From Dysidea avara (Eukaryota > Porifera > Demospongiae > Dictyoceratida > Dysideidae), in the NCBI RefSeq assembly GCF_963678975.1, contig NC_089276.1:21207226-21271225 (forward strand): a stretch of 64,000 bases of DNA. The letters are read 5' to 3'. Positions 31,201-63,858 of this stretch are shown here, one piece after another. Numbering within the stretch: the stretch's first letter is position 1; each line of letters opens with the position of its first letter. The notes under the pieces were generated by a model. The model worked only from the letters and a program-made list of their open reading frames with translations. It was not told the DNA's origin and made no database searches. Position numbers and translations under genes: made by a program.

Positions 31201-32347
<1,147 letters not shown>

Positions 32348-40206: not shown

Positions 40207-42237
40207 GTACGATTTGCTCAATTAATATACAAGTAGAATTTTGAGTCACAGTAGTGATAAGATGTAGCTACCAGTGAATGGGTATTAAATAGAAGAAGTA
40301 CACTGTACAAACTTTCTGTGTTTATCATTATCAACACAGTTATTTGCATGTTGGCTACATTCTGTGCTGTATCATTAGTTGAGATGTGTGTGCGTGCGTG
40401 CGTGCGTGCGTGCGTGCATGCGTGTGTGTGTATGCATAATGTCTTTGTGTACATGTATTATTTCATCACTACACTTCCATTGCTTTTCTTTACAACTTAC
40501 TACACTTTCCATATCTCTAATATATAGCCTTTATTTCTTCTAACAGAGAAACTGTTGTAATCACAGAACACAGTATAGTGAGTTATGCAGCCAAAGAAGC
40601 TGGTAGGCCACACTAGTGTGCTATTAATCAACTTATTCATCACACGTTGAATAGCTACACTGTACTTCACTAGAGCCCAAACGTGTTCTTTGAAACTTCC
40701 AATTTGGTTCCATCCTAATTGATCAACCACTTCTTTGATACTGTATTATGATGGGTCAAACCTCTAAAAGAATGTCCATATATTATGCTAAAAGCATTTG
40801 ATTCTGGTAAATAGAGTAGCCATCAGGCACATATCTAGAGGGGTTTCAGTTTTTGGAAACTACTCAGTTTTTTGAACTCAAAAAAGCACCTTTCAGGGAA
40901 TTAAGTGCAGGGCCGGCCTTAAGGGTAGGCAGGGTAGGCAGCTGCTAGGGCCCTGGAGCTAAGGGGGCCCCCAAAGCTCTAAAACTAGGGTCCCAGTTCT
41001 CAAAATACAAATTCAGTGTATAAAACTAGATAGTTCTTACTTTTAAGAAGATAGAATCATAACATATAACTCGTCGCTCAAGGTGCGCATTGACATTAAA
41101 TATGGATCACGTGATATTCTAGCAATGAGCAATATTAAAGCAATAATTAATACTGGAATGTGTTGGTGGTTGCACATGATATTCATTGCACTTTGCACTA
41201 GGATGCAACCATACACATTAGGAACTAATTAAATGTCATTAGCTTTCTACTAAAATGGTTAATCAGGCAAGCAATCATGTGACTGTGTTTATTTAAATCA
41301 CACAAGGGAAGTCAGGTCTCACTGGAGTGCATGGTGGTCATTTGCTTTCAACTGCTCAACTGTGATGATGGGTGGTTAAGTAGTCACTTTATACACATGT
41401 GAGTTGAATGCATGCACTAATTTTCTGGGGTGCACTGAAATAATTATAATAATTGACCTTTGCATAGAGTGGGTCTATGGCAACCATGTTGGCTACTTCG
41501 TTTTGGCTTTGTGCTGAACCAGGCACATAAAGTTGGAGATCTATTGAATAGAGTCCATTAATATCTATAATATTGCATAAGTTGAGACTGCTGGATGGAA
41601 CAATCATGAGATCAGACATTGCCAGGTGAGCTATTTCGTGTGCAGGCTGTGGTTTGATAACTGCTTGAAGTAGTGGCAAGACTCTGCAAAGATTGAAGAT
41701 GATCATAATAGTACAATAGCGTATAACTGTAAGCTTTGATTTTACACAATCACATTTAGCGTAGTTAACTGGAGATAGGATACACTGCAGAAACAGCAGT
41801 ATGTGTACACGTAGCTAGCAGCTATTATTACAACAGCCAATGCTTAGCTTGTATAGATATTCTTTACACAACAAGTATATAAATGTATGTTATGCATAGC
41901 CCTACATGGGTTAAATGTTTTTTGTGTAGGATGGAAGGAAAGTGGTTAAGTACCACTTCCTCTGGGGGGCCTACCCAGTCGTTGCCTAGGGCCCCAGAAC
42001 ATCTAACCTCCGCCCTGATTGAGTGCCTCTAAAATTAATTAATGCTTTACTGCTAGTAGCTATAACCTGTAGTTATATCTGAGAGTGGTACCTTCTTATC
42101 CATGCATCTGAATTCACCGCTACATCACAGTAAGTCTCTGACCTCCAACTCTGGTTGAATACACCTTGTTGCTATGTTTTATATGCAATGGTTATTCATA
42201 TGTTGAAATACGTATTGCTTATTGCCATACTGAATAG
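40207..42237 (+). other. intron 11
   Basis: Contains a GTGC/GTGT repeat at about 40387-40432 and the hAT-like element at 40908-42017. About 42090-42237 is already the start of the 2.23 kb tandem repeat unit. Confidence 0.65.
40908..42017. mobile_element. hAT-like non-autonomous element, 1.1 kb
   Basis: Starts CAGGGCCGGCCTTAAGGG and ends CCTCCGCCCTG with further inward complementarity (GGCAGGGTAGGC, GCTAGGGCCCTGG against GCCTAGGGCCCCAG). Flanked by ATTAAGTG (40900-40907) and ATTGAGTG (42018-42025), an 8-bp target duplication with one mismatch. A 105-codon minus ORF inside (41389-41706) is unrecognised and I do not call it a gene. Confidence 0.86.
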
Positions 42238-42429
42238 GCCCAACATGTCCACCACTTACTGCTCCTGATAACGGAGATATTGATTGTTCACTGGGAGATG
42301 ATGGAGAAGCTAATCCTGGAGATACTTGTACCTTCACATGTGATGATGGTTATGAACTAGGAGGTAGTACCAGTAGAACATGTGGAGATGATGGTAGCTG
42401 GAGTGGTACTGACACTACTTGTACAAGAG
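42238..42429 (+). CDS. exon 12: sushi A1
   Basis: 64 codons, phase 1 at both ends (ACTGAATAG to AGAG|GTATGC). PTCPPLTAPDNGDIDC, CTFTCDDGYELGG, SRTCGDDGSWSGTDTTC. Six cysteines with selectin-type spacing. First of three nearly identical A exons. Confidence 0.95.
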
Positions 42430-42791
42430 GTATGCATGGTGTTATGGGTCAGGCTCACCAGACTATACGTATCACTTCAGTGTACCAATTCATAAGTTTA
42501 TAATGATATAAATTGACTACACTGCTATATATAGTACAATAACTAGTTCCCTTATATTCAATATGTAATGATCACCAAGAGTCTATTGTTATAATGAGAA
42601 GCTTCTTACACAATGGCTATTATTAGAAAACTGATATATATATTGCATAGCTAACTGTCTTGCCTTTACAAAACATATGTTTTTAAATGAAAAAATTAAA
42701 TATGTTACGATTTTATATGTGATAAGAAAATGTCCAACTACATATGGGTAGCTGTGTTCACATTTACATCAGTTCCTATTTTGATCTACAG

Positions 42792-42983
42792 TAGTAACAT
42801 GTCCACCACTTACTGCTCCCGATAATGGAGATATTGATTGTTCACTGGGAGGAGATGGAGAAGCTAATCCTGGAGACACTTGTACCTTCACATGTGATGA
42901 TGGTTATGAACTAGGAGGTAGTACCAGTAGAACATGTGGAGATGAAGGGAGCTGGAGTGGTACCGACACTACTTGTACAAGAA
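42792..42983 (+). CDS. exon 13: sushi B1
   Basis: 64 codons, phase 1 at both ends (TTGATCTACAG to AGAA|GTATGC). VTCPPLTAPDNGDIDC, CSLGGDG, then RTCGDEGSWSGTDTTC. Differs from A by GGDG for GDDG and GDEG for GDDG; A and B therefore derive from one ancestral exon before the larger unit was duplicated. Confidence 0.95.
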
Positions 42984-44467
42984 GTATGCTCTCTTTGCTG
43001 TTTAGTGTGCTAGTTGCTAATAATTATTGCAAACTTCTATGATAAATTTTTGCTTTCTGGCACTTTCCACCAAATATTGTGAAGTAAATAATTCCTATGC
43101 AACTTAGCTGTACAAATAGCCTGTGTTCATGAAAGTAAAAGTTTTTGGGTGGATATCTGTTGTGGCCCAAATTAATGTTAATGAAATTTGCTGTGATTAA
43201 TACAAGGTTTACATTGATGTTGTACAGTTATTCTTGCTACATTCCTGATTAACTCAGTACCATAACTACCTAATTTTATTGGAGTCAAATGTAAATACTC
43301 ATGACATAAGTGTTCTGTAGCTTCTGTCATGTACTTTGTAAGTGTTCTGTAGTTTCTGTCATGTGTCTTAGTAGCTACAGCACTTCTCTTTGACTGGTAA
43401 TGCTTCCAAGTAACTGGGAATAATTTCACTCACACTAAATCAGGTAGAATGATGTCATTGATAATCAGTCTTAGACAATTCTTCAAAGTAACGATGCTAA
43501 AACTGTGCACTGTGTGTGGTAGTAGATTATTTATTTAAGCATTGAAGTCCATTGAACACATTATTTGAGTGCAACATCACTAGTACATAGCGAAGCTACT
43601 CTATATGTAAGTAGGACTCACATCCTCACATTTAGCTAGTATATTATGTCTTTCCTCATTAGGCCACTCCTAGAGAATTCGTTGTTTCCCATTTCCCACC
43701 CGCTTGCAGATTCTCTTCCCACATGGTCATTCATTATTGCTGTCAATATTCATTATTTATCCTGTGACTGCATAGGCAGCATAGCAGTAACTAGTTTAAC
43801 ATTCAGAAAACCCTTTTAGCTAGCTTTTCACTGTTAAAGTTCTTAGTTTAAATATTTCTACTGTATTCTTACTTGTAAGTTAGTTTTGAATTTCGAAAAT
43901 TAGTGGAAATATCTATAATGAATAATGGATAATGAACTGCCCACCCGCATGTATTTTTGAGGTCAATGAAATGGGAAACAAGGAATTTTGTTGGAGTGGC
44001 CTTATAAGCTGCTTTGTTAAAGTAAAAAGTAATAATTATAAAGATGTTGTGACCTTATGCATACTAGCTTATTTATATAAAAATTATGGTAACTGCTGTG
44101 CCTATGATTACATAAAAATGGAATTTTCTTGGTTCCATAAAATGAGTGTGTCGCCTGCCCACACCAGCTGTACTTGGCCACACGGCACACTTGATATAGG
44201 CTATTTTCATTATTCTATGAATTATCCAATTATCCATATTTTATCCTCTTATCCATCATACATCTGAATTCGCCACTGTTCAGTCAGAGGGTCAGCCATG
44301 CACAATTTAGGATGTGTTAAACCATCGTAATAATATTATACTCACTTCATTACAGTGAGTTTGCTCTGACCTCCAACTCTGGTTGAATACACCTTGTAGC
44401 TATGTTTTATAATGCATAGGTTCTTCAGGTTGTCGAAATATGTATTGCTTATTGCCATATTGAATAG
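42984..44467 (+). other. intron after B1
   Basis: 1.48 kb. Contains the MITE at 43662-44001. Near-identical to the intron after B2 (45216-46697). An 83-codon minus ORF at 43178-43429 is present in both copies merely because the intron is duplicated. Confidence 0.75.
43662..44001. mobile_element. PIF/Harbinger-like MITE within tandem copy 1
   Basis: Ends GGCCACTCCTAGAGAATTCG and its inverse (TTGTTGGAGTGGCC), flanked by TTA (43659-43661) and TTA (44002-44004). Same family as 14687-15070. Confidence 0.86.
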
Positions 44468-44659
44468 TTCCAACATGTCCACCACTTACTGCTCCTGATA
44501 ATGGAGATATTGATTGTTCACTGGGGGGTGACGGAGAAGCTAATCCTGGAGACACTTGTACCTTCACGTGTGATGATGGTTATGAACTAGGAGGTAGTAC
44601 CAGTAGAACATGTGGAGATGATGGAAGCTGGAGTGGTACTGACACTACTTGTACAAGAG
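44468..44659 (+). CDS. exon 14: sushi A2
   Basis: 64 codons, phase 1 at both ends. Protein nearly identical to A1, with GGDG in place of GDDG after CSL. ACTTGTACAAGAG|GTATGC donor identical to A1. Confidence 0.95.
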
Positions 44660-45023
44660 GTATGCATGGTGTTATGGGTCAGGCTCACCAGACTATACGT
44701 ATCACTTCAGTGTACCAATTCATAAGTTTATAATGATATAAATTGACTACACTGCTATATATAGTACAATAACTAGTTCCCTTATATTCAATATGTAACG
44801 ATCACCAAGAGTCTATTGTTATAATGAGAAGCTTCTTACACAATGGCTATTATTAGAAAACTGATATATATATATTGCATAGCTAACTGTCTTGCCTTTA
44901 CAAAACATATGTTTTTAAATGAGAAAATTAAATATGTTACGATTTTATATGTGATAAGAAAATGTCCAACTACATATGGGTAGCTGTGTTCACATTTACA
45001 TCAGTTCCTATTTTGATCTACAG

Positions 45024-45215
45024 TAGTAACATGTCCACCACTTACTGCTCCTGATAATGGAGATATTGATTGTTCACTGGGAGGAGATGGAGAAGCTAAT
45101 CCTGGAGACACTTGTACCTTCACATGTGATGATGGTTATGAACTAGGAGGTAGTACCAGTAGAACATGTGGAGATGAAGGGAGCTGGAGTGGTACCAGCA
45201 CTACTTGCACAAGAA
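45024..45215 (+). CDS. exon 15: sushi B2
   Basis: 64 codons, phase 1 at both ends. Nearly identical to B1; the last module segment reads WSGTSTTC instead of WSGTDTTC. Confidence 0.95.
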
Positions 45216-45893
45216 GTATGCTCTCTTTGCTGTTTAGTGTGCTAGTTGCTAATAATTATTGCAAACTTCTATGATAAATTTTTGCTTTCTGGCACTTTCC
45301 ACCAAATATTGTGAAGTAAATAATTCTTATGCAACTTAGCTGTACAAATAGCCTGTGTTCATGAAAGTAAAAGTTTTTGGGTGGATATCTGTTGTGGCCC
45401 AAATTAATGTTAATGCAATTTGCTGTGATTAATACAAGGTTTACATTGATGTTTTACAGTTATTCTTGCTACATTCCTGATTAACTCAGTACCATAACTA
45501 CCTAATTTTATTGGAATCAAATGTAAATACTCATGACATAAGTGTTCTGAAACTTCTGTCATGTACTTTGTAAGTGTTCTGTAGTTTCTGTCATGTGTCT
45601 TAGTAGCTACAGCACTTCTCTTTGACTGGTAATGCTTCCAAGTAACTGGGAATAATTCCACTCACACTAAATCAGGTAGAATGATGTCATTGATAATCAG
45701 TCTTAGACAATTCTTCAAAGTAACGATGCTAAAACTGTGCACTGTGTGTGGTAGTAGATTATTTATTTAAGCATTGAAGTCCATTGAACACATTATTTGA
45801 GTGCAACATCACTAGTACATAGCGAAGCTACTCTATATGTAAGTAGGACTCACATCCTCACATTTAGCTAGTATATTATGTCTTTCCTCATTA

Positions 45894-46230
45894 GGCCACT
45901 CCTAGAAAATTCGTTGTTTCCCATTTCCCACCCGCTTGCAGATTCTCTTCCCACATGGTCATTCATTATTGCTGTCAATATTCATTATTTATCCTGTGAC
46001 TGCATAGGCAGCATAGCAGTAACTAGTTTAACATTCAGAAAGCCCTTTTAGCTAGCTTTTCACTATTAAAGTTCTTAGTTTAAATATTTCTACTGTATTC
46101 TTACTTGTAGTTGTAAGTTAGTTTTGAATTTTGAAAATTAGTGGAAATATCTATAATGAATAATGGATAATGAACTGCCCACCCGCATAGGTCAATGAAA
46201 TGGGAAACAAGGAATTTTGTTGGAGTGGCC
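45894..46230. mobile_element. PIF/Harbinger-like MITE within tandem copy 2
   Basis: Duplicate of 43662-44001, carried along in the segmental duplication, with the same TTA flanks. Confidence 0.85.
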
Positions 46231-46697
46231 TTATAAGCTGCTTTGTTAAGTAAAAAGTAATAATTATAAAGATGTTGTGACCTTATGCATACTAGTTTAT
46301 TTATATAAAAATTATGGTAACTGCTGTGCCTATATGATTACATAAAAATGGAATTTTCTTGGTTCCATAAAACGAGTGTGTCGCCTGCCCACACCAGCTG
46401 TACTTGGCCACACGGCACACTTGATATAGGCTATTTTCATTATTCTATGAATTATCCAATTATCCATATTTTATCCTCTTATCCATCATACATCTGAATT
46501 CGCCACTGTTCAGTCAGAGGGTCAGCCATGCACAATATAGGCTGTGTTAAACCATCGTAATAATATTATACTCACTTCATTACAGTGAGTTTGCTCTGAC
46601 CTCCAACTCTGGTTGAATACACCTTGTAGCTATGTTTTATAATGCATAGGTTCTTCAGGTTGTCGAAATATGTATTGCTTATTGCCATATTGAATAG

Positions 46698-46889
46698 TTC
46701 CAACATGTCCACCACTTACTGCTCCTGATAATGGAGATATTGATTGTTCACTGGGGGATGATGGAGAAGCTAATCCTGGAGACACTTGTACCTTCACGTG
46801 TGATGATGGTTATGAACTAGGAGGTAGTACCAGTAGAACATGTGGAGATGATGGAAGCTGGAGTGGTACTGGCACTACTTGTACAAGAG
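46698..46889 (+). CDS. exon 16: sushi A3
   Basis: 64 codons, phase 1 at both ends. Same as A1 except WSGTGTTC. Its downstream intron matches those of A1 and A2 only up to about 47026, where the sequence changes abruptly. No B exon follows on the plus strand; its match is at 54420-54611 on the minus strand. Confidence 0.95.
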
Positions 46890-47022
46890 GTATGCATGGT
46901 GTTATGGGTCAGGCTCACCAGACTATACGTATCACTTCAGTGTACCAATTTATAAGTTTATAATGATATAAATTGACTACACTGCTATATATAGTACAAT
47001 AACTAGTTCCCTTATATTCAAT

Positions 47023-47652
47023 ATGTGTGACCGGATCTTGGAAAACCTACCTTTTGGGCACAAGCAAACTTTTTGGGAAAACTCAAATGAAAATTTCAAT
47101 GATTTTTTTAAAATTGATTTTTTTGCACATTTAGATAAAGCAACTATTAAACCTTCTTGCTGTGAAGTTTCACACCCATAGCTTCTTTTTCCTAGGAGAT
47201 ATGGATGATTATATTAGACCATGTAGTAATTTTACATGCGTGGGACAACAATTAACTTACAAATTAGGTGATTTGTTCAGGTGCTGGAATGTCTAAAACT
47301 CAGTCTTAGACAATGATACATGGCATTTAATGGCAGAAAGTACCAAGAATACTTCATTAAACTATCAGAAATGTCTTTTAAGGTATTTTAGATGATAAGA
47401 ATGGAATTATTGCTAAACAAAGTGATTTGTCACCATTTGTCACCCTTAATCACTCACAGAACTCAATACATTACCATAAAAGTTAGTTTGTAATGTACAG
47501 GACAGCAAATTGGCCATATCTCAGGAATGCTTAAAGATATTAAGCTGAAATTTTAACACAAGATAGATGAACACCCAGTACCTCATTTAAGCTATAAAAC
47601 AGAAAATTGACCAATGTGCCAAAAAGGTAGGTTTTCCAAGATCAGGTCACAT
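47023..47652. mobile_element. TIR element at the inversion boundary
   Basis: Left end ATGTGACCGGATCTTGGAAA, right end TTTCCAAGATCAGGTCACAT: inverted repeats of about 30 bp with one or two differences, and AACCTACCTTTT further in. The first four bases (ATGT) also fit the native intron sequence, so the exact left edge is ambiguous. No transposase. Related ends occur at 33991-34650. Confidence 0.8.
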
Positions 47653-48567
47653 TTATGTAACAAACACCCAACACTATAATTAACAAACACATAGCTAAAT
47701 TAGCTGCATTGTTTGTAACTACATGTTACTACACACATACGTGATAACTAATGATTATTATCTATACCAAAACAGCTAAGCTGTGATGAAATGGTGCGGC
47801 CTCTAAAAAGACTTGGGTGAAAAAGTTGTAAAATCAAAGGTGGCGGCAAAGAAATGGTTGGAATGATACTAATGCCAATCATTTTTAATAATCACACCAC
47901 AATGTTCACTTAACCAACCTTTTAATGTTAATCAAATTAATGTGGAAATGTATTTTTGTGCTGGTGAGGGCTCTCAAGGAAATATAATTTAACATGGAAA
48001 TGTACTAATTTTGAGCCATAGCTAAATGTGTACCTCTCATCAGTACTCTTCAATCTCTCCCACTGTGTGTGCAGCAACATCAATACACTATTAGATGGTT
48101 TCACAGTCAAAATCAACTGGTCTACCTTTGCTTGATGTTATTTCTACACTATGTACTGTTTTTTGGATCTTTAAAATTGGATGACAATGTGTACTGTAAA
48201 ATTTAATTTGGCTTTCAGCCTTTATTTATCCACAACTTGGCCTACAGTAATTCTTGACTATGCTACAGTATCCTTTAAAAACAAATCAATGCTCGCACTG
48301 CTAATTCCCAATCAACCACCACTGAGAAGGATTTGCATGACACCTCAAACTCCCAAAATATTGGGTAATGTTCACTTGAGAGTGAATCCCTAGGAAGCTA
48401 ATTAGTGTAAATCTGGCAAGCATAGATAACATTACAATTATCTCATGGCTTCAACAATTAGCTAGCAAGCAACAACACCCTGAATAATTAAAATTCTCAA
48501 GCTATAGTTCTAGATGATAATATAAGATAGTTTGAATACCAGAGGTGCCTATAGATTAAACACATAC
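47653..48567. other. intronic sequence with a small MITE
   Basis: About 47772-47880 is a copy of the family whose complete member is at 53843-54040 (AAACAGCTAAGCTGTGA, GGTGCGGCC). The remainder has no recognisable feature; a 70-codon plus ORF at 48181-48393 lacks any motif. Confidence 0.55.
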
Positions 48568-48753
48568 CTCGTGTACACACAGTGTCAGTACCACTCCAGC
48601 TTCCATCAATCTGACATGTCCTATTGTTACTACCACTTAGCTCATAACCATCATCACATGTGAAGGTACAAGTGTCTCCAAGACTAGGTTGTCCATCATT
48701 TCCCAGTGAACAATCAATATCTCCATTTTCAGGAGTAGTAAGTGGTTGACATG
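48568..48753 (-). CDS. sushi exon, minus strand (downstream of vWA)
   Basis: 62 codons, phase 1 at both ends; acceptor TTTACTCACAG, donor ACGAG|GTATGT read on the minus strand. ACQPLTTPENGDIDC, CTFTCDDGYELSG, NRTCQIDGSWSGTDTVC. Six-cysteine sushi like the plus-strand modules. In the restored orientation it lies between the vWA exon and the sushi at 57992. Confidence 0.94.
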
Positions 48754-50180
48754 CTGTGAGTAAACAATGAAGGATGTATGAAAGGTGTGATGTAGTTTGA
48801 AGATACACCAGTTAAGTTTCTGTGTTAAGTTGCTATATGCACAAGTGTAGGTCTACAATGTACTCAGTTATTGCAAATTAGGTCTACATACATATCATTC
48901 TGTTAAGTTACTGAGTGCTATGTAGACCTATATTTACTACAAGTTTAATTGCAATATTTGATTAGAAATTGTGTAACATGCGTTACAACCAACCACCACT
49001 TGGGTACACAAGATTTAGTAAACATTAAATTCAGAGTATAAAAGTTTGTCAGTGATAAAAGATATATCAATCAACAGATACATCCTCTCGGTTTCTTGAT
49101 GATGATAACTGTCAAAATTCTGATTGACCATCGGTCCAATTTGAAGATAAATGCTTTACCATAATGGTATGTGTATCATATCAGTAAAAGTCATTGCCAT
49201 TATAAAGATCATTGTCAAGATTATTGGCTTTGTTTCTAGTGCTTGGCATAAAGGTTTATTCTACTAGGATTTCTCCTTTGGGGGTCAGAAATTTGAGGGG
49301 TAACTGAGTAAAAGTCTATGGGTAGCTTCCTATAGTTATCCTTTTCCAAGTTCACAACCATTCAACTGTCTGACATTGGATATGTATTTTGACCATTATG
49401 TGTGTCATTTTAAGAACAAGAATAACCTAAGTACAGTGAAGTTGTCCCTCACAATTATTTTTAAGTAGAATCTGAAATATTTGGAAAGTATCCCTCCTCC
49501 TACCAGCTCTAGAATAAATATACTGCTTGGTATGCAGCTCAAATGTTGAGAATAGCAGCAAAGAAATTAAACCCTGTGTTATCAGCCAAAAGTCTTTGTG
49601 CAAAATATCTATTCATTCTAACATGGTGTGAATATTAAGCCATGTGTATTAACTACTTTTGACAACTACTGCTGAGCAGTTTTGATATTTCATATATAGG
49701 CAGTATGATATTGTTACTTGATATTGTGTTGTAACTATATCATCGGCATGCCTTATATAGTTAGATGTCTTTCTGGACCTCTACTACAAGATGCAGATAC
49801 ATCTAATCATTTTCACTTAAGACAGAATTGTGTTGACAAGCTGTTTGTAGTATATTATTATCCACACAAAAACAGCCAAACTGTGAAAAAATGGTGCGGC
49901 CTTAAAAAGCCTGGGTGAAAAAAGTTGTGAAATCATAGGTTGCGGCCAAGAATTAAAAAATTTGTAGTTAACCACCAACCAACAATTACACTTTAAGACA
50001 TTAAAATATTGAAAGCTGTAACATCCTAATAAAAGCATGGTAGTTACAGTTGTGCAGGAGAAGTATTGACTGTACTTTGGTTTCTAGCTATAATAATTAT
50101 ATCATTCTAACCCTTCTTCTGGAATTATTCATACTTGCAAGTGCTTGCTTGCATTGTTTTACTATTGCTTATGGACTAAC
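48754..50180. other. intron between the minus-strand sushi and vWA exons
   Basis: 1.4 kb, AT-rich. About 49865-49965 is another copy of the AAACAGCCAAACTGTGA MITE family. Nothing else recognised. Confidence 0.6.
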
Positions 50181-50756
50181 TTTCTTCTTTGCATATCGTC
50201 TGAGTGAAGTTTTCTGTTAACTCAATAACAGTGTCCATATCAAACTCATCTGTGAAGAACACAAGTGAGGGGTCACTAGCAATGGCATTCAGTTCAACAA
50301 TGTCAGCACCACCCAATCCTGCAGCATAAACCTGATAGATACCAGCTGCATGAAGAGCATCAGCAGCAGCTGTTGTCCTCCTTCGATTATTAGATCTTCC
50401 ATCAGTCACAACAATAGCAATTTGGGTATGTCCATTTCTCACTCCCATTGTACCATCTTGTGCACTAGATAACAGAAGCTGTAAAGCAGCTGCTGTGTTA
50501 GTTCCTCCAGTGGGGTATGGTATACCAGGATTGATAGCAGGTAAAAGAGTTGCTTTACTGGTGTGTTGCTGTAGATTAAATTCGATAGATACACTACCAC
50601 TAAACACTATCACTCCAACTAAGCTATCTTGTAGACCAATGGTCAGAGTATCAGATACACTTTCAACAAATTCTCTTATCAACTGGAATCGAGTTGCTGT
50701 AATACTTCCAGAACCATCCAATACAAAAACCAAATCAATGCCAGAATTTTCACATT
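50181..50756 (-). CDS. vWA domain exon, minus strand
   Basis: 192 codons, phase 1 at both ends; acceptor ATTTTTTGTAG, donor GAAA|GTTAGT on the minus strand. Complete vWA fold: DLVFVLDGSGSI provides the D-x-S-x-S of the MIDAS, GGTNTAAAL the Thr, and IVVTDGRSNN the Asp, so metal-ion-dependent ligand binding should be possible. Further strands VGVIVFSG, VYAAGLGGAD and LVFFTDEFD are typical of collagen/matrilin/SVEP1-type vWA domains. If the donor were not used, the frame would stop four bases later, so a terminal exon is also conceivable. Single vWA in this window, and it lies in the inverted part. Confidence 0.95.
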
Positions 50757-51589
50757 CTACAAAAAATAATTTCAGGGTGTACATACAACCTTGTAATCTA
50801 TTGAACATTTCACAAGCAGTTTAATGTTAAACACTATCCCACCAGGGTCCCATAAGAAGACTGAACCTATTACTACTAGGAGTCAGATTTGTATCAGAGA
50901 TACTTCACTATTGATATTGATACAAACAAACAAAATATTCATGTCACACTTATATTATTTACATACAATGTAAATTTTAATAGGCACTTATAAAGAAAGT
51001 GAAATGACATGACATTGGCTAACACATTAATGGACAATTAGGTTTGTTTGAAGTAATTCTGTAAAAAGACCTGAAAGTTAAGAGGAGTACTTATAAGCAA
51101 TCAGGAGCGTATACTGTATTTAGTGGAATATGCAGTCTATCATTTCAACCATTCATCACAACAGTCGTTATCGTCTAATGATTAGGCAACTTTGTGTGAA
51201 TAGGATCACTAGGTACCCGCTGATTATGCCGGAATAATCATGAGCATAATAGGTACCTGAAAGCATTGAGCATAATGCTATGTAGCATAATAGGAAGAAT
51301 ATTTGAATCATACTACAAATCTTTGATGGTCAAAATACATATCACAGAAAAATATTGATATACCCTAATAGAATGGTCAATAATTCTAATAGAACAATCA
51401 AAGAGCTGATTGTTCTATTAGAGTATATCGGTCTTTTCTGTCAGATGCATTATGAAGAGCAAAGAGGTGCTTCAGCCACTTATTATGTGTCCATAACTAC
51501 AAAAAACATGGGAAATAAGGCATAAAGCTTGAGCATAATTTGAGCATAATAGGTAAAATTTTTGAGCAGTGCAGCATAGCATAATAGGG

Positions 51590-51715
51590 GCCATGGAACT
51601 ATGCATGCATGAAAAAGCTGTTTTCTTTCTTCCTGTTAATATACTCACGGTGTGATCGCCAGCTTTCTTGGCCGCATGACACACTACCATGTATCTTGAT
51701 AGTTAGACACCAATA
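51590..51715 (+). repeat. hairpin end of the dispersed repeat
   Basis: Matches the terminal part of the element at 1611-2465: TTTCTTTCTTCCTGTTAATA, CTCACGGTG, CTTGGCCGCATGACACAC, then TATCTTGATAG. The stem is slightly mismatched here. Confidence 0.72.
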
Positions 51716-51837
51716 CCAAGGGAACTAAGTGATTTAGTAACCCCGATGGCCCGAGGCTGTAGCGTCCGGGTATCACTCTTTTCACCCTATTTCATATCCC
51801 TATATAACTTATACAAAAAATGGTAACCAAAATGGCA

Positions 51838-52080
51838 AAAAAAAAGAAAGTGCAATCCTGATGGGGGATCAAACCCGGGATCCCAGTGTGATAGTCCAGT
51901 CTGCTACCGATTATGCTACCACTGCTAGCTCCCTTGATTCCCTTCTTTTCTATCTTATAAATGTGACTCACGAAGTAACCTGTCTAAAGGTGAAGAAGAA
52001 ACCAAAGCTGAACTCCAACCCTAACGCTAATGCTACTAGACACTTCCCCTAAAGCCAACTACTTGTGGCAACTACAGGAT
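51838..52080 (-). mobile_element. tRNA-derived SINE, second copy
   Basis: On the minus strand an A-box-like GGTAGCATAATCGGTAGC precedes a B-box-like GGGTTTGATCC. It shares CTTTTCTATCTTATAAATG, GGTGAAGAAGAAACCAAAGC and AACGCTAATGCTACTA-like segments with the copy at 17985-18230. Confidence 0.66.
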
Positions 52081-52109
52081 GTATCCCCTAAAGCATATAT
52101 TATCATTAT

Positions 52110-52640
52110 TATTATTATTGTTAATTAGCAAAGCCCTCTAGGGCCAACACGCTAATGAGCATTACAATCACATATTATATTACTTACTAGATCTATTGTG
52201 TCAATGTCAGGAATTTGAAGGGAGTTCCATCGAATAATTGTTTGAGGGAGGAAGGAGTATTTGTACACATCAACTCTTGTTTGCAATTGAGTTAGCTTGA
52301 GAAGATGTTGAGCATGGGTGTAGGACATTGGGGTTGGTGACAGTAAGCAATGATGAGGTATTACTATATAATAAGTTCTTGACAATCTTGAAAAGCAAGG
52401 TGAGTCTAGCAATTGTTCTTCTGTTTTGAATGTAGGCCATTTAAGACTGGTTAACATTTCTGTGATGCTATCATGGTTTTGGTTAGATCTGTTCCAGGGT
52501 TTATTCAAAACAAAGCGAGTGGCACGGTGTTAAATCATTTCTAGTTTACTAATACTATTGTGATGATAGGGGTCCCAGACAAGTATTCAGGATTGGAATC
52601 ATCTCACGTGAGCTCATTGACTGCAATACAAATGCGTTTG
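52110..52640 (-). mobile_element. LINE 3' end fragment
   Basis: Minus-strand translation includes HRATRFVLNKPWN-like residues (in pieces), DSITEMLTSLKWPTF, PHHCLLSPTPMSYTHAQH and VDVYKYSFLPQTIIRWNSL, the conserved tail of a CR1/jockey/RTE-like ORF2. Frames shift upstream. It ends near an ATTATTATTATTG stretch at about 52100-52120. Confidence 0.85.
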
Positions 52641-53842
52641 CTGGATCATTGCTACCCCCTTCAAAAAGGGTGGGATAGTGAAAGACGCCATTCACAATAC
52701 GTTTCTGTAAAATGTCAATATGTGAGAGTGTTTGTTTAGTTGGTGGTAAGCCTTCCTCGCGAAAGGGGATGGTTAATTAGCACTAGGGCCTATTTTGTAG
52801 GTGTGTCTCTTGATGCAGCTGGCAGATACATAGCCAACATTATCAAAGAAATCAGACTTATAATGCACGGCAACTAACTATTAATGTTTTAGGAAGTAGT
52901 CAAAAGAGTAGAACTAGTCTTCTGTGTGATAAATTCAAAGATATTGCTACTTCCGGTAACAATGATCCGGCACAAAAAACCAGATGATTCCAATCCCGGG
53001 TACTTGTCTGTATATCTATGCCTACAGTTGACTACTCGTGGCAACTACTGGACGCATCCCCTAAAGTCGACTACTTGTGGCAAATACTATACGCGTGCCC
53101 TAAAGTCGAAGAGAGAGAGAGAAACAACTACAGTTAAGAAGTCTGGATGCTTTTGAGCTTAATATTACGTAAGGGTTATGAAAGGTGGTGAAAAGAGTAA
53201 AACCCTGTAGGGTCCCGAGCGCAGCAAGGGCGATACTAAGGGCCAGAGGGGTTACTAAATCACTTAGTTCCTGTTGGTCGCAGTGTCTAACTTATTTAGA
53301 CTATGGTTTAAAAGTACGTACCTTTATAGCCAGAGCATGAATGTGGGGTGAAAGAGCAATGCAGAACAATGAAACAGTTTCTTCCTGAAGTCCTTACAGC
53401 GCCCACAAAAATAATTATTCGACCAGTAACCAAAGTAACAGCTAGAGTATATATGGCTAGAGCTACAGTACATATGCTGGTTTAGCCTATTATTTGTCCA
53501 GAATTATTTGTGGAACATGGAGAAGAAGAGTATTATACTATTATCAAGTACTGCAGTGTGCCTTTTGTGTTATAATTATTTATCATGTACAAAATTGCTT
53601 GAGGGCGGGTTACTAAATGAACATGTGTAGGTGACTAAATGAGCGTGTCAGGTGACTACATTGTAAGTGATTTAGTAACCCTGTAAATGAGTCGTATCAT
53701 AGTCTAATTACTGATAAAATCAAAAATAGTCAAAGTATTAAAAATTTGCTTTAACTCTTTTTCTTCTTTCTGTGGTAAAGCAAAAAAAAAGACAGGTTAA
53801 AAAGGCTCCCATTTTGGTGTATACAAATACAGAAAGAAGTGA

Positions 53843-54040
53843 TATCTAATCCAAAACAGCCAAGCTGTAAAAATAGGTGCAGCTCCCAAAAAGGCCATGG
53901 TGAAAAAAGATGTGAAATCCAAGGTGGCAGCCAAGAAATGGCTGTGATGGTAGGTTAATGGTAAAAATTTTAATAACGACAATTCGAGTGTATTTTGTGC
54001 CAAGACCAATTTTTACAGCTTGGCTGTTTTGGATTAGATA
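53843..54040. mobile_element. complete 198-bp MITE
   Basis: Ends TATCTAATCCAAAACAGCC and GGCTGTTTTGGATTAGATA are exact inverses and continue through AAGCTGTAAAAA. Partial relatives occur at about 47772-47880, 49865-49965, 58897-58990 and, inverted, 61715-61803, making this the most frequent small element in the right half. Confidence 0.87.
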
Positions 54041-54142
54041 CATACAACAGCCATGTAAGATATTCTAATAGAACAGTCACAAGTTACATTGTAGCTAGCT
54101 ATGCTAAAATCTAAACAAACTAGTATTTTTAAAAATATATTT

Positions 54143-54375
54143 AATTTAAAAATGAAGTAGGGATCTATGCAATAAAAAGTAGTGAAACAAGAGATGGATG
54201 ATGCATGCTATTACAGCGTAACTCGATGGGGAAGTCCCTACTTTGGCACATTAGCTATAAAATTATTTTATTCAGTGCCAAAGTAGTGAATTTCCCATCA
54301 AGCTATGCTGTAATACCATCATTCATCTCTTGTTTCACTACTTTTATTGCATAGATCCCTACTTCATTTTTAAAT
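54143..54375. mobile_element. foldback element, 233 bp
   Basis: Nearly perfect palindrome: AATTTAAAAATGAAGTAGGG at the left, CCCTACTTCATTTTTAAATT at the right, with the arms extending through AGTAGTGAAACAAGAGATG and TACAGC..AACT segments to a short AT-rich centre. Confidence 0.88.
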
Positions 54376-54419
54376 TAATAATTAAAAAAAAATACTAGTT
54401 AAATTGGCTTGGTACATAC

Positions 54420-54611
54420 CTATTGTACAAGTAGTGTCAGTACCACTCCAGCTCCCTTCATCTCCACATGTTCTACTGGTACTACCTCCTAGTTCATAAC
54501 CATCATCACATGTGAAGGTACAAGTGTCTCCAAGATTAGCTTCTCCATCTCCTCCCAGTGAACAATCAATATCTCCATTATCAGGAGCAGTAAGTGGTGG
54601 ACATGTTACTA
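54420..54611 (-). CDS. sushi B3, minus strand
   Basis: 64 codons, phase 1 at both ends; acceptor TTGATCTACAG as in B1 and B2, donor ATAG|GTATGT. Same protein as B1 apart from GEANLGD (for GEANPGD) and a last codon ATA for AGA. Its upstream intron (54612-54837) matches the A-B introns of copies 1 and 2. It is the missing partner of A3. Confidence 0.95.
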
Positions 54612-54837
54612 CTGTAGATCAAAATAGGTATCAATGTGAATGTGAACACAGCTACCCATATGTAGTTGGACATTATCTTATCACATAAAATCATAACACA
54701 TTTAATTTTCTCATTTAAAAACATATGTTTTGTAAAGGCAAGACAGTTAGCTATGCAATATATATATATCAGTTTTCTAATAATAGCCATTGTGTAAGAA
54801 GCTTCTCATTATAACAATAGACTCTTGGTGATCATTA

Positions 54838-57800
54838 ATGATGAAACAGCAAAAACATGATCTAACAATAACATTCTCTTTAGAGTAATTACTTTAGTAC
54901 TGTGCAATCACTCTAGCAGGAAACCCAGCTTTAACAGTCCTTCTTCTTGAATCTATGCATTCATACTATAGTAAGTCTTGGTGTTATTGCAAGTTACTGC
55001 GAAATACTTGTTATTATGCTTGAGAGTTTGTTTGATAAATGGATGAGTGACTACATGTTATGTAGTATAATCAATAGCCACAGTAGAATACATACAAAAA
55101 GCAGCATACAGAAACTGCAGTAGCAGCAGTAGTAAATCTGTAGAAACACCGAACAACTCACTATTATATACAACACAATCATACTAGACTGTATACTTTC
55201 ACACATGTGATTGCGATTAGCAGTTAAAACTGGCTATAGGTCTTAGCTTGCTCATTTTGAAACACTGATAGTGGTATAGGTAAAGTAATCGCGAGTCTTA
55301 CTGTGAAGTCAGTACTGTCCGTGCACTCATGCTCATCCTCACTTTTTCAAGTTGCAGATGCATTTCTTTCTAGTTTTACTTTAGCTCAAAAAAGTATGTA
55401 ATATAGCTACTACTCACTCAAGAGTGGGGTGTTATGTTAAAGCAGTATTGTATATAAATATGTGCAACTTAGAAACAATTGAAATTGTATTATTATACAG
55501 TATGGTACTACTGTATATTAAGGATCATGGAGATTTTGGCATTCTTGCATATAAGTATCACTCAGAAACCAGCCTCACGACAGCTTGGCAACATTGGTTG
55601 GGCATGGCCAAACCCACAAATGTGTTCAGACTGACCCCAAACCCTTCCAACAAGTTTTTGTGAAATTTTCATTTTTTTTAAAAATTATATAACTGATAGG
55701 CTACATGATTGATTTCCTCACTGTTCAATGTTGTTTCATCCCAAGATGTGCCTTTTGCCAACCACAGCATGTACAATACACACATCACAGGACTTATCTT
55801 TGTTCTCCTTTGTATCCCAGTTCTTTTCACTGACAAAGCAAGACGTCAATTTGCAATAGCATGATATGGCTTCCCTGTGGCTATGATGACTAACTATCAT
55901 GCTAAATATCTGTACTTCCTTAGCAAGTGGATTGATTGCAGAGACACTTCTCATACTGTTGTTTGTTTGTAACACTGCATAATGTGTGGAACATACTGTC
56001 AATTTCATGGGAAATTGCATATTGTGTAAAAGAAGAAATTTTATGGTGGGATTTTCAATGGAGATGAAATTCACAGTAGCTGAAAATCAAGTGTAATGGA
56101 CACTTTACTTTTCAGTAATTGATTGGGCACTTGTTCAGACACAAAATTAATTTTAAGGCATCCCTGGTGCCACACTTTAGACCTTAGGGAATTATGCTCC
56201 AAATTCATTATTCTATTCTAAATTTCTCGGAAAAAGTTATCATTATGCTCTTATTATTCCCAAATGTATCCATTATTCTCAAAATTATTCCCAATTTTTA
56301 TAAAAAATGTTCAACTTTTGCAATTTATGATGTTTAGCAGGATTTTGGTATAGTAATTATGTTGTTCTATTAGACAGGAAAGTTAGCTTTTAGCTGCTAA
56401 GATGCTTAGTTGCTGTTACAATACATACAGTAAAGATTACTCCGCTGACTGTTCTAGTAGAGTATAGTTGACTGCTCTATTAGAGTATCTAGATCTCAAC
56501 TTATGTGAAATTGCATATTATGCCAATTTATGATCTTCAATCACTTCAAAATTCCAGAATAATTCCCTATTCTTTTACCCCATCATTATGCTCAAAAGTA
56601 TGCAGGCATTACTCCCAGATCTCCAGTGCCATTCTTTTTTTTGATGCAGGTTCAGTAGTCATAATTGTGTTATAAAAATTAAACATCTAAAAAGGAAAAA
56701 TTAAGAATTTTTAAGTTAGATTTGGGATCAAAAGTGAAAAAGTTGTAATAGCTAAAAAGTAGTGAAACAAGTGAGGTTGCTATAGCTGCAGATTTACTAA
56801 TGGACATTTAATACCTAATTCATACAATGTTATTGACTGAAGAATGTCCATTACACCTCCAAACTCTCCACTTGCAGTCAAAATCAGAGACTTTATTTTC
56901 CTATATACTTCAATTCTTGCTGCTAAATTAGACCAATGATTCATGTGAAAGAGCATGCACATTGGTTATAGATTACAGCTCCATTGGGCACTTGTCGTAA
57001 TATTAACATGAATTAAACTTGCAAATAATGAGGTGCAATATATCACACCATCTGTGTTATTTAGTTACAATTATATGTCACTTAAATGATTCTGATAGTA
57101 GTAGTAGTAGTAGTATAAGTTTCATGGTGAAAAGGTTTTGTGGTTCATTTGAGAATTGACTAATATGTAGCTGTGAGATACGTGTACTGCTGTGTGCATA
57201 TGCAATCATAGGAAATTCATTCAATCTTGCAAAATCTATCATCTGTTGTAGTTATATTGAAATTAGTTTTATGGTATTCAATGTGTCTGTCATCAGTTTT
57301 GAAGCAATAAACCAATGTACCATAACCCAGAAAATTTTGCTTGAGATATTTCTATTATATTTTTGCAGGCTGCCTATACTATCAGCAAAATATTTTATCA
57401 GAAACTTTAGCAACTATTAAAATGCATTTCTATCACTTTGATGCTGTATTTTAAGTCAGTATGCTGCTCTCTGCACTATAGAATATTGTTGATCCCTAAA
57501 GCTCACATGTGTCCTTACAGTCTTGTGCACCATGGCCTGGCATAAACAGGAAGATTCATTCTACACATTCTATGCTTTGTTACAGGCACTGTGTGCCGTA
57601 TATAGTGAAGAACTGGGTGGTGGTTGTGTGCATGTTCATAATAGCAACTGAGCTACAAGAGTAGGATTAATGGTGTGATAGAGAGAGCTATGCAATGATT
57701 AAGATACCTCTGACTCATCCTCTACTGGAGGACCTAGTATGTATTTTTTTCCAATCTAAAGTACACTCATTCCTTCACTCCAACTGTGTAATATAATATT

Positions 57801-57991
57801 ATGGCCTCCAAAAGTGCTAAATCTATGACTATTTTCATTAGTAGACTACATTTCTGTGTACAGTGTCATGTAAGATGACCAAAGCAACCACGAAATACTC
57901 TTGCTAGTTGATATCACCCAATCTACATAATTAAATACCTTAAAGATTTAATTACATTCTAAACTAGCTCTTTTTATTTCTACTACTATAG
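54838..57991. other. intron sequence right of the inversion
   Basis: About 55520-56120 is an inverted, diverged copy of the dispersed repeat (28554 family). About 56455-56495 has two close CTATTAGAGTATC-type motifs. About 57095-57115 is a TAG trinucleotide repeat. No exon recognised; minus ORFs at 55736-56074 and 56780-56962 have no motif. Confidence 0.6.
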
Positions 57992-58195
57992 TGATAACGA
58001 TAACATGTCCCCCACTTGTTGATGCTCCTCGTAATGGAGATATTGATTGTTCACTGGGAGATGACGGAGAAGCTAATCCTGGAGACTCTTGCACTTACAC
58101 ATGTGATAATGGTTTTGGACTGCAAGATGGTAGTACCACTAGGACATGTCAGAATGATGGTACCTGGAGTGGAACAGAGCCTAGGTGTAGACGAG
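57992..58195 (+). CDS. sushi exon after the inverted segment
   Basis: 68 codons, phase 1 at both ends, TACTACTATAG to ACGAG|GTATAG. ITCPPLVDAPRNGDIDC, CTYTCDNGFGLQDG, TRTCQNDGTWSGTEPRC. Six cysteines. Confidence 0.95.
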
Positions 58196-60108
58196 GTATA
58201 GTTGTACTCATTATATGTAGGGATGCAGTTAAATATCATCACAGTAATAAGTATTTTTCTCCTAGAAAGTACATAAATTTTATTAGTATGTACTGTGCAT
58301 ACTCAGATAATAAAATGGAGGTTTCCATATTTTTTGATTATGTACATATTCAAAACATGAGACAGGCATACAGACAAATAAAATACATTGATTTTCCCAC
58401 TGTTATGGGGTAAACAGCTTATGGAACAGTTTGAAACATTGTAACAGTACCTTTAACAGTACCTTTTAAATTAGCAACTACAGAGCTACAAAATGAATAG
58501 CAAAGACGTATTAAATCATGGGGTTGAGATACTAGAGCAATCACCACTGGGTAGAAAATTGTTGAATAATGCTAGTTACAACCAAAATTTCATTTATTGT
58601 AAAAGCTGTTCAGTTCAATGAACTTCATACTTAACTCCCAAATCATTAACCACTGAACAATTGCTGTTTCTACGTTATAAATGAGAATTCTGGCTTAGTA
58701 TTAAAAGTTTGTAGATTTATCAATTGAAATTGTGTGCTTGAGTACTTGGAGTATTGCAATAGTGTTAATTGAAATATGCAACTTCTCTATTAAATAATCA
58801 TCATTGTATTTAATTAATTAAATAAGAAAATGTGGGTGAAAACAAAGTCCTAAAGTCTTTAGCGTTTTTAAAAGACAAAAAGAAGTAAAACCCATACCAA
58901 AACAGTCTACAGTAGCTATGAAGAAAGGGAAAATACCTGGGTTAAAAATTTCGTGAACACAAAGGAGGAAGCCAAGAAACAGTTGCAATAATGTTAACGA
59001 TAATTTATCAAACAGTATGGTAGTACTGTTTAAGTGGGATCCCCCAAATGTGACACATGCCGCCAATATTGCTGCCTTTTAAAATCATCCTAGAGAAATA
59101 TTACATGACAAAAATCACCTTTGCGGAATAATATTAGTCCATCTAACATGAAATTCAGCATTGAAAACAAGAAAACACTTACTGGTGACCGGATAAAGAT
59201 TTTTTTTAAATCGCCAAAACTCAAAATTTAGTCTGCCTCACTTCCTGACCACATTTGCAAGCCTAGAGGCAAAACAAAGTAGCACATGACCACCATTTTA
59301 CACCACAATAACAAACTGACCAGTGGGATGTGCCTTTTGGGGTTCTGACGAGTGTGTTCTCTCTGCACCTTATCTTTCCTTTTATCTTCAATCAGGTTGG
59401 TTGTCTTCTTCTTCAAGCATCAAAACCATACCGAGCCATTAATTTTTCATATCAATACTTTCCCTGAGCAGCGTATTTAGATGCCACAAAATTTGTTTTA
59501 GAAAGCACTTACACTGCTGAAAGAGTGGGGTGCTTATAGTTAAGGCTGCTGATACAGCAGCTAGGTTGTCACTTCAACTTTTGCCCTCGCTTTTGCCAAC
59601 TCCTGGACTGCACTTGACAAAGAGATTTATTACTTAATAGATGGACTGATACTCGATGGCTTGTTCCTCCAAACAAACTGACTTAGCCACTTGCTGCCGA
59701 ACGAGATTAGCGAGTGATTGGATAGTCTATTAAAATTAATACTCGACTAGCTAGTTTTTCTGACGAGAAGATTTTATTACTTCATCCTGTTACTCAAGAC
59801 AGCTGAAAGGGCCTGTTTGTTCGAACAACTTCCAGCTCGGGTGAATAGAGTGACCATCCCTCAAACTGAATACTAGTAGCTGCTCAGTCATACTGAGACA
59901 AGTCATAGATCTGAGTACCACTGCTACTACAATCAGAGGTGAGTTATGCATGGTACTACGGCCCTATGCACTTCCAATTTTGTCACAGTACATACTTAAA
60001 TAAGCCGGTCAGGAGCTTAATAGCTAGCTATATAGTTTAAATTTTATGTGTGAATACTGTGATCAGAGTGAACATAACATAACATGAAATGATACTTCTT
60101 GCTATTAG
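58196..60108 (+). other. intron
   Basis: Contains a partial MITE of the 53843 family near 58897-58990. About 59170-59420 and 59560-59940 look repeat-like but unclassified. The last 110 bp before the next exon are duplicated before 62050. Confidence 0.55.
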
Positions 60109-60309
60109 GTCGTGTATGTCCCACTCTAATGGCTCCTGATAATGGAATGATTGACTGTTCACTGGGAGATGATGGAGCTGCTACTAATGGAGACACTTGC
60201 ACCGTTACATGCAATGATGGGTTTACTCTACGTGGTGATGCTACAAGAACATGTCAAATTACACGTCGTCGGATAAGATGGGTTGGTGATGAAGCCCGCT
60301 GTGTATCAG
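60109..60309 (+). CDS. sushi exon, copy 1 of a second duplicated pair
   Basis: 67 codons, phase 1 at both ends, TTGCTATTAG to ATCAG|GTATGC. RVCPTLMAPDNGMIDC, CTVTCNDGFTLRG, ATRTCQITRRRIRW, EARC. Six cysteines; basic insertion RRRIRW before the Trp loop. Confidence 0.95.
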
Positions 60310-62049
60310 GTATGCCAGAGTAATGGTTTAATTGATGTATCTTTTAACTAAGAAGGCATCACCTGAATTGTCACTATTAAATTTGTCATCGATTAATTAA
60401 TTAAGTAATAATTTTGGTAAAACTTTGCATACATGGTAGACAATCGCCAACTCTTAATTTACAGAAATCAAAATGAAACTGTTGCCAATGTTCATAAAGT
60501 TTTTTTCTTGAATAGAAAAGATTAGGTGACTGTACTACGTATGTCTCTTGGGAGGCTGTTCTAATCATTGACTACTCTTTGAGAAAAGCTATATTTCCTG
60601 GTGTTTAGATGACTATACTGTTTATATAGTTTAAATCCATTGTTTCTTGTAGACATGCAGTTAAGAAATTTTTAAAGGAAAATCCACTTATGCCTCAAGC
60701 CATCTTATACACCATTATCATATCGATTCTGCTTCTTTTGTATATATAACAAACTTGGTAGATTAAGAGTGCTCAACCTTTCACTATATAGGGCATTCTT
60801 GAGTTGCAAGACTAGTTGTGTTGCTCGTCTCTGTACCTGCTCTAATAGATGTATATCACCCAACTAGTAAGGGTTCCAAATCACTGACTAGGTGAGAACG
60901 AATTAAACTCGTATACAATGTTCGCAGCATGGACACTCAAATGATCTCTTTAAAATTCCAGTAAGAGCATTAGCCTTATGAACAATATTTGAGATATGTT
61001 TATGAAACTTTTAATCAGGTGTAAGGAAAACACCTAAATCTTATTCCCCATATGTCCGTGTAATAGGAACAACACTATCTCCAGTAGGTCATTGTATATT
61101 ATTTGCAAGTGTCAGAGGAAAGCCCTATAGACATAGTGAAGCATTAAAGAACAACTGCAACACCACATTTGGAAGGTCATTAACAAAACAGGTAAGAATA
61201 GGTCCCAGTACACTACCTTTTGGTACACCACTAGTAATATTTATTCACTCTAAATGGGATCCCCAGATATTGACTCTTGGCTTTCTGTTATCTAAGAAAT
61301 GTTTTATCCAATCTGCCAACCTTCCTTCTAAACCGTTATGATTCAATTTACGTAAATATTAATCTACCATGAGGAACTCGATCAAAAGCTTTTTGAAAGT
61401 TAAAATAAATTATGTCAACCAACCCACCTGATTTCATAACACTAGTCCAGCCTTCCATCACATTTAGCAGTTGGGTGACACAAGAATGTCCAGGCCGAAA
61501 TCCATGCTGGCTTATACTTAAAAAGTTGTTATTTGTAAAATGTATCATTTCTGCGTCTTTAACACACAATGGATGTTAAACTAACTGGTTGATAACTTGT
61601 GGGAAGATATCCAGACCTTTTCTTGAATATTGGTGTCACGTAAGCTTCTTTCCATGCAGTACATAATCGACCTTCCTCCAATGATTTCTTAAACATTAAC
61701 TTACCATCACAGCCATTTCTTGGCTGCCACCTTTGATTTCACATCTTTTTTCTCCTTGGATTTTTTGTGGCCACACCCTTTTTCACAGCTTGGCTGTTTT
61801 GATATAGGTAAAACTATAATTATTAATATGAATTCAAACAACTAGCTTACAATGTCAGATAACAAATATAAGTTGACCACATTTTAGCTTTCTATATTTT
61901 GATGCAGAGAGAATAAGTGAATAACCATAACTGACTGACTGCATTAGCTTTACTGAGACAGTCACAATGCTATGTGTATGTATATATGAATACTGTGATT
62001 ATCTGAGTATAAAGTGAACATAACATGAAATGATGCTTCTTGCTATTAG
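60310..62049 (+). other. intron carrying a LINE insertion
   Basis: Apart from the LINE fragment at about 60480-61740, the intron ends repeat the flanks of the two duplicated sushi exons. About 61715-61803 is an inverted MITE of the 53843 family. Confidence 0.7.
60480..61740 (-). mobile_element. LINE reverse transcriptase fragment, degenerate
   Basis: Minus-strand translation in several frames gives WKEAYVTPIFKK, SQHGFRPGHSCVTQLL, DIIYFNFQKAFDRVPHG and GVPKGSVLGP, all typical of CR1/jockey-type reverse transcriptases, followed by DLGVFL and the C-terminal LLEQVQRRATQLV region. The Y-A-D-D box is not clearly readable, and stops and frameshifts abound. Longest open part is 61348-61569. 5' truncated. 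Confidence 0.9.
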
Positions 62050-62250
62050 GTCGTGTATGTCCAACTCTAATGGCTCCTGATAATGGAATGATTGACTGTT
62101 CACTGGGAGATGATGGAGCTGCTACTAATGGAGACACTTGCACTATTACATGTAATGATGGATTTACTCTACGTGGTGATGCTACAAGAACATGTCGAAT
62201 TAATCGTCGTAGGATGGATTGGAATGGTGATGAAGCCCGCTGTGTATCAG
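62050..62250 (+). CDS. sushi exon, copy 2 of the second duplicated pair
   Basis: 67 codons, phase 1 at both ends. Nearly the same protein as 60109-60309 (CTITCNDG, TCRINRRRMDWNGDEARC). The flanks (GAACATAACATGAAATGATG, CTTCTTGCTATTAG) are shared with the first copy. Confidence 0.95.
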
Positions 62251-62934: not shown

Positions 62935-63858
62935 ATATCAAGACACATACACAGTAGTGTGTCGTGCGGCCTATGAAGCTGGCACGCAACATCGTGAGTA
63001 TATTGACAGGAAAAAAGAAAACGCAATTTTTACACATTCATAGCTCTATGCTTCCTTTACAAAACAAGACGATTTTTGCTGTGAACACGCCCACCAATGG
63101 CAGTACTCCACATTCCAAATTTCAGCAAAATTTCTTCAAGTGTTCCCGAGATATGAGACTTCAAAAATTGGCTTAGTTTCTTGTTTTTTCTTCTTTTCTT
63201 CGAATTTTTGCACACTTACAAAAATTGCCATAAAACATGAATGCAATATCCGATTGCCTTAAAATTTGGCACACAGAAGGGGAGTATAAAGATGTATCTT
63301 GGTACCACGTTTGGCTGGAATACGATAAGCAGTCAAGGAGTTATTTGTGATTATCCATGAACAATAAAACCAATATGTTGTCATGCCTACAAGGTAATCC
63401 GCTAATGGGAAGAAGCTGAAAATTGGCACGTGAATAGTTTAACTATTGATCCTCAAACTTTTTGTAGTTTGAAATAAATTGAGCTAAATATCGTGAAGAT
63501 ACAGCAGCAACCAACAGTGTCTAACAATCACGCAATTAAGATTAGCTAATAAAAAAAACATGAATACTTGTCACACTTACCAGACAAACCACTCAGTGGA
63601 ATGATTTAAAAATAGGTGTACAGATGGATTAATCAACTTAGAAAGGCTCTTCAATAGTTTAGAAGAATCAGACTTAAACCCACAGAGTTAAAACACGAAA
63701 TCCAACTTGGTGTAGCAAATGACAGATCAAGATACTCTAATAGAGCAGTCATCCTAATAGAGCAGTCTCCCTGAAGAGATATCAGCTAGAAACAAGTAAC
63801 CCGTATAGGGATCAGCTACAAACAAATCACACTGTAGAGCTACAAACAAGCCACCTAG
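62935..63858 (-). repeat. inverted copy of the left-edge dispersed repeat
   Basis: Reads, in reverse complement, as three minisatellite units (63776-63858), the GACTGCTCTATT motif, the roughly 0.8 kb body and the hairpin end (GACACATACACAGTAGTGTG, 62940-62962). Order and orientation match 1500-2465. The two copies differ by many substitutions, so they are not a recent duplication. Confidence 0.82.

Follow-up and report, generated by a model that had tools for sequence, protein, structure and literature searches.

A probable young inversion tied to a single transposon end within a vWD/sushi/vWA gene of the sponge Dysidea avara

The described inversions closest to the locus reported here come from flies and maize. 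Galileo inversions of Drosophila buzzatii carry a transposon copy at each breakpoint together with exchanged target duplications and are attributed to ectopic recombination (PMC2775673). Reversed-ends transposition of maize Ac/fAc placed one break at an Ac end in each of six inversions, with elements present at both breakpoints and matching target duplications of 8 base pairs (bp) marking the new site (PMC8225341). For inversions of Drosophila mojavensis, breaks in non-repetitive DNA have been ascribed to non-homologous end joining, two of the inversions having inverted duplications at their breaks (PMC3355041). Here, we analyze a stretch of 64,000 nucleotides of the Dysidea avara genome, from now on referred to as the window (contig NC_089276.1, below C5; C5:21207226-21271225), and within it a gene with vWD, sushi and vWA domains. 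A first-pass annotation of this DNA had proposed that an inversion splits the gene. This proposal is supported: both joints are collinear in related sequences and a transposon with a mismatched target duplication is located at one of them. The case is confirmed and largely explained as a young intragenic inversion tied to a single transposon end, a known type of event that is unusually well resolved here. We consider it likely that the gene carries a real, young and nearly lossless inversion of 7,811 bp (47027-54837) which arose through a break at a single element followed by end joining. Among the papers listed in a literature search, none dealt with this locus or with a vWA/sushi inversion in such a genome.

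Set against the described systems, the locus shares individual features with each of them. Like the Galileo inversions, it shows a DNA transposon with disturbed target duplications at an inversion breakpoint, however, a copy is present at one breakpoint and none at the other (PMC2775673). As in the maize Ac/fAc inversions, a cut-and-paste element ends precisely where one of the breaks falls, but there is a single element and no full new target duplication (PMC8225341). With D. mojavensis it has in common breaks in non-repetitive DNA and signs of end joining; unlike there, the left break involves 0-1 bp and the right break a few bp, and a transposon end coincides with one of them (PMC3355041).

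The genome comprises 550.8 Mb in 108 contigs and the window contains no N. Pfam domains found in the tested open reading frames (ORFs) are VWD, C8, VWA, Sushi, TIL and NIDO, while no RNA family was matched at gathering thresholds across the whole window. The part of the gene concerned contains three tandem units (U1 to U3) of paired sushi exons, A and B, separated by an intron termed i. Features are given below by window position, strand and basis of assignment.

42136..44363, plus strand: tandem unit U1, in which intron i separates sushi exons A1 and B1 (self-blastn)
42238-42429, plus strand: sushi exon A1 (splice model)
42792-42983, plus strand: sushi exon B1 (splice model)
44364..46593, plus strand: tandem unit U2, containing sushi exons A2 and B2 (self-blastn)
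44468-44659, plus strand: sushi exon A2 (splice model)
45024-45215, plus strand: sushi exon B2 (splice model)
46594..47026, plus strand: left part of the third unit U3, with exon A3 and intron i as far as the left break (self-blastn, alignment)
46698-46889, plus strand: sushi exon A3 (splice model)
47027..47650, minus strand (arbitrary): 624-bp transposon at the left inversion joint (inverted ends)
47651..54837, minus strand: genic portion (7,187 bp) of the inverted segment (self-blastn, paralog comparison)
48568..48753, minus strand: sushi exon C, antisense to the gene (Pfam Sushi, splice model)
50181..50756, minus strand: vWA exon, antisense to the gene (Pfam VWA, 5.1e-38; splice model)
54420..54611, minus strand: sushi exon B3, antisense to the gene (self-blastn, alignment, Pfam Sushi, splice model)
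54612..54837, minus strand: second part of intron i of U3, ending at the right joint 54837/54838 (self-blastn, alignment, paralog)
54838..58200, plus strand: right flank of the inversion, ending at sushi exon D (collinear with the paralog C5:21597192-21600541)
57992-58195, plus strand: sushi exon D (splice model)
60109..60309, plus strand: sushi exon E (exon scan, splice model)
62050..62250, plus strand: sushi exon F, resembling E (self-blastn, exon scan, splice model)

The tandem duplicates serve as witnesses of the left joint. It had been noted from the letters that the intron following A3 resembles its duplicates up to 47026 and that the continuation, together with B3, is found on the minus strand from 54837, and this is borne out by self-blastn of the window. 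U1 positions 42136-42566 match 46594-47026 at 95.4% identity and positions 42566-42988 match 54837-54415 on the opposite strand at 95.8% identity. Both matches terminate at base 42566 and overlap by 1 bp (T), as is characteristic of a reciprocal breakpoint, and the flipped piece carrying B3 is exactly the half-unit that A3 is short of. The chance of two independent ends agreeing within 1 bp in a unit of 2,228 bp is about 3/2228. Once its halves are brought together again, the third unit aligns without interruption to both U1 and U2 through the joint. A further locus, C5:20698952-20699059, is likewise collinear across the left joint, with 86% identity to U2 positions 411-512.

The history of the tandem array bears on the same joint. 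U2 and U1 are 97.6% identical across 2,673 aligned positions in self-blastn, an alignment that runs on into U3. Differences between U2 and U3 amount to 4/433 before the joint and 1/137 after it, then rise to 17/285, the limit of the low-divergence tract (position 570) having been picked post hoc with the data in view. Because this tract crosses the joint, it suggests that the two halves of U3 were one piece at the last sequence exchange of the array. The ends of the units and the sharp change in divergence within intron i would fit unequal crossing over between units. After B3, the sequence of the end of U3 differs from that following B1 and B2.

The right joint is crossed unbroken, and without the transposon, by a paralogous block at C5:21.597-21.605 Mb. 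Window positions 54838-57732 and 57758-58200 match paralog positions 21600541-21597192 (96.0% and 98.4% identity) and window positions 47651-51588 match 21600540-21604485 (96.8%). The two window edges therefore adjoin in the paralog, 47651 lying at 21600540 and 54838 at 21600541, with an overlap of 2 bp. Exon B3 with a short flank (54412-54626) is 94% identical to the B exon of the paralog. Substitutions relative to the paralog number 74/3,969 aligned positions inside the segment and 62/2,929 outside. Duplication of the entire block, followed by a flip of the copy in the window, would be expected to give such similar rates. When the window's own genome was queried with 54400-55000 (57 matches; best 40 of 579 candidates), the part of the query belonging to the right flank (query 434-599) matched the window and the paralog only. 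Within this scope, no second copy of the right joint was found, and no uninverted second haplotype was seen in the 108 contigs.

At the left joint lies an element of 624 bp (47027-47650) whose inverted ends, GTGACC...GGTCAC, are alike over about 35 bp. A query of 46880-47220 found at least 39 other places (best 40 of 1,294 candidates) at 93-98% identity, starting from about 47012-47027 onward, and the family is larger than the 39 places listed. Its members are 624 or 625 bp long. Twenty copies of the 39 listed were fetched for comparison, and all 20 are flanked by a perfect 4-bp target duplication consisting only of A and T (ATAT in 15, ATTT in 2, AAAT in 2 and AATT in 1). Inverted ends combined with a target duplication of fixed 4-bp length characterize the element as a non-autonomous transposon of the terminal-inverted-repeat type. 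The window copy has a mismatched target duplication, ATGT on the A3 side and ATTT on the other (AAAT on the gene strand). In the paralog the site is empty, with a single AAAT and no element. The right flank starts ATGATGAAAC, where an intact second target duplication would read AAATGATGAAAC; the target duplication is thus short by 1-2 bp at this flank, one A being ambiguous. Judging from the letters of the right flank and the empty site, the element would already have occupied the C-D intron when the flip took place, or have arrived in the course of it, and one of the breaks would lie exactly at its outer end.

Other orders of events were considered for the transposon. Insertion after the inversion was rejected because it should leave matching 4-bp duplications and because the mismatching base on the A3 side is the one that U1 and U2 have in the ancestral state. 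A first insertion at the left site, ATGT, is disfavoured, with G or C found in the target of none of the 20 fetched copies.

Since the paralog at the right joint, U1, U2 and the third locus at the left joint, and the target duplication of the transposon all agree, the window order is, by these comparisons, the derived one and A3-B3-vWA-C-D ancestral. Exons of vWA and sushi type were also scanned in three stretches of C5, namely 21.59-21.64 Mb (6 vWA exons), 21.750-21.758 Mb (1) and 21.10-21.208 Mb (4). The other vWA exons have the same strand as their sushi neighbours (11/11), and those on the minus strand follow the order B-vWA-C (7/7). The vWA exon of the window is the sole exception to strand agreement within the three stretches scanned. 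Measured against the window copy, the two nearest of the 20 fetched transposon copies show 1 and 3 differences in 624 bases. Because the nearest copy is 1/624 different, versus about 2% divergence between window and paralog, the insertion, and with it the inversion, looks young.

These results refine what the first-pass annotation had claimed about the event. Its estimate of 7.8 kb agrees with a flipped segment of 7,811 bp (47027-54837), but the 624-bp transposon at the left edge had been overlooked, as had the uninverted paralog. Re-inversion does restore the duplicate structure to within one base at the left joint, while at the right joint it keeps the transposon and a clipped target duplication. 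The suggestion that the event is recent gains support from the transposon, which looks young.

The likely course of events would start with the insertion of the 624-bp transposon at AAAT in the C-D intron, for which the empty site is seen in the paralog and the place in the sequence of events is inferred. The chromosome would then have broken twice, once where the transposon ends on its outer side, with a loss of 1-2 bp from the target duplication, and once within the A3-B3 intron, intron i. Rejoining in reversed orientation would have followed in an end-joining-like manner, with microhomology of about 1 bp. Little homology and small gains or losses, the hallmarks of end joining, are found at the joints, with a 1-bp overlap at the left and a 2-bp overlap with the paralog at the right. 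A transposase cut at one transposon end would be the likely source of the break at the element.

Two alternative mechanisms start from more than one transposon copy or end, and both would leave elements at both joints, so that a later excision giving the observed joint is needed. Ectopic recombination between two oppositely oriented copies, one in each intron, with later excision of the copy at the right joint and a 5-bp deletion left behind, appears unlikely. The mismatched target duplications of the window copy would fit an exchange between two copies and the letters of the right joint would fit such an excision. It requires, however, a copy inserted at ATGT, when no target containing G or C is found in the 20 fetched copies, as well as the additional excision, and in contrast to the one copy per joint of Galileo, there is no element at 54837/54838 (PMC2775673). 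We regard as similarly unlikely an alternative transposition that inverted the segment, with intron i as the target of two ends belonging to different copies (on sister chromatids, for instance) and with subsequent loss of the right-joint element. While the position of one break exactly at the element end, as in the six maize inversions, is in line with this proposal, the latter have elements at both joints and matching target duplications (PMC8225341), whereas here one joint is without an element and duplication in intron i amounts to no more than 1 bp; again, a later excision has to be assumed.

An assembly error that reversed a segment which is collinear in the organism itself is very improbable. 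The inversion is evidenced by assembled sequence only, which also counts against our own interpretation, and the 624-bp repeat occupies one of the two joints; repeats can mislead assemblers. Yet the right joint is without a repeat of this kind (best 40 of 579 candidates), the window contains no N, and a plain flip would leave recoverable 4-bp duplications instead of one missing 1-2 bp. That the minus-strand exons represent a separate gene, or an inverted copy derived from the minus-strand array at 21.60 Mb without any flip in place, is hardly credible: although the close relatives of the vWA exon are located on the minus strand at C5:21.60 Mb (97%), an insertion would not end both halves of intron i on the same base, the missing half-intron would still follow A3, and the right flank continues with the same paralog as the segment.

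Further points weigh against a single-element inversion with two fully witnessed joints. The uninverted witness of the right joint is a paralog rather than an allele. Window positions 51589-54411, about 2.8 kb of the segment, have no collinear paralog match of 200 bp or more; the stretch 51588-54412 seems to hold insertions. At the third locus, C5:20.699 Mb, the match on the A3 side is just about 22 bp long, and a small insertion lies close to the joint. Finally, the letters alone do not separate the single-element mechanism from the two-step models.

For the gene, the exon models imply that the inversion places B3, vWA and C in antisense. Splicing of a sense transcript would then lead from A3 directly to D with the frame kept, and a protein made from the inverted allele would be expected to miss three modules, one vWA and two sushi. 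The splice script searched a range of 14 bp and required phase 1 and an open frame, so its output speaks to compatibility and is no independent test: AG/GT phase-1 sites were found on both sides of A1, B1, A2, B2, A3, B3, vWA, C, D, E and F (11 exons), and the translation is free of stops in both orders, with 839 residues in the restored order and 521 as written without B3, vWA and C. The earlier statement that the re-inverted exons are in frame with the others holds in this sense. Because symmetric phase-1 exons can be modelled for the modules, the vWA domain could be lost through the flip without a frameshift, and the product may be tolerated or even useful. A rather doubtful extension is that transposase acting at one end of the young element flipped a vWA-bearing module of an adhesion-type gene and that both alleles still segregate, the population producing two in-frame protein forms with and without B3-vWA-C in the setting of a large, fast-changing vWA/sushi gene family. 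Gene finders run on this sequence may predict a spurious antisense gene made up of the flipped exons. With breakpoints, empty transposon site and ancestral order all readable in one genome, the locus offers a clean case in which to ask how one transposon copy may rearrange a gene.

The vWA exon of the window has at least 140 matches in the genome at an expectation value (E) of up to 0.001 (best 150 of 152 candidates). Besides itself, the two nearest (97%) are at C5:21603066 and C5:21608711, both on the minus strand. A minus-strand tandem array of B-vWA-C units spans C5:21597192-21639146 and 21750375-21757666, the units often being spaced about 5.9 kb apart, and its vWA matches extend to 21.79 Mb. 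In the protein database, the entry P0002 contains a vWA exon that is nearly identical, differing by a single residue (T to I); it is encoded on a separate contig of 21,418 bp, perhaps from another haplotype or individual. A protein-based scan of the genome contig collection found no relative, and one 25-base pattern had 0 matches in the genome contig collection and 0 in viral contigs.

Several repeats and possible mobile elements were observed in the inverted segment and elsewhere in the window. An ORF at 52155-52529 on the minus strand resembles, by eye only, the C-terminal end of a non-LTR retrotransposon protein and matched no Pfam family at E up to 0.01; it is located in the part of the segment without a collinear paralog match of 200 bp or more. 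Near exon B3, positions 54118-54400 are self-complementary (84%), possibly representing another small transposon. The repeat at 53813-54009 recurs in the neighbourhood, often as inverted pairs, and also at 61684-61801. Toward the window edges, 1552-2456 and 62949-63839 form an inverted repeat pair of about 0.9 kb that is 82% alike, with more copies nearby on C5. Positions 31389-31762 consist of short repeats in a long tandem run.

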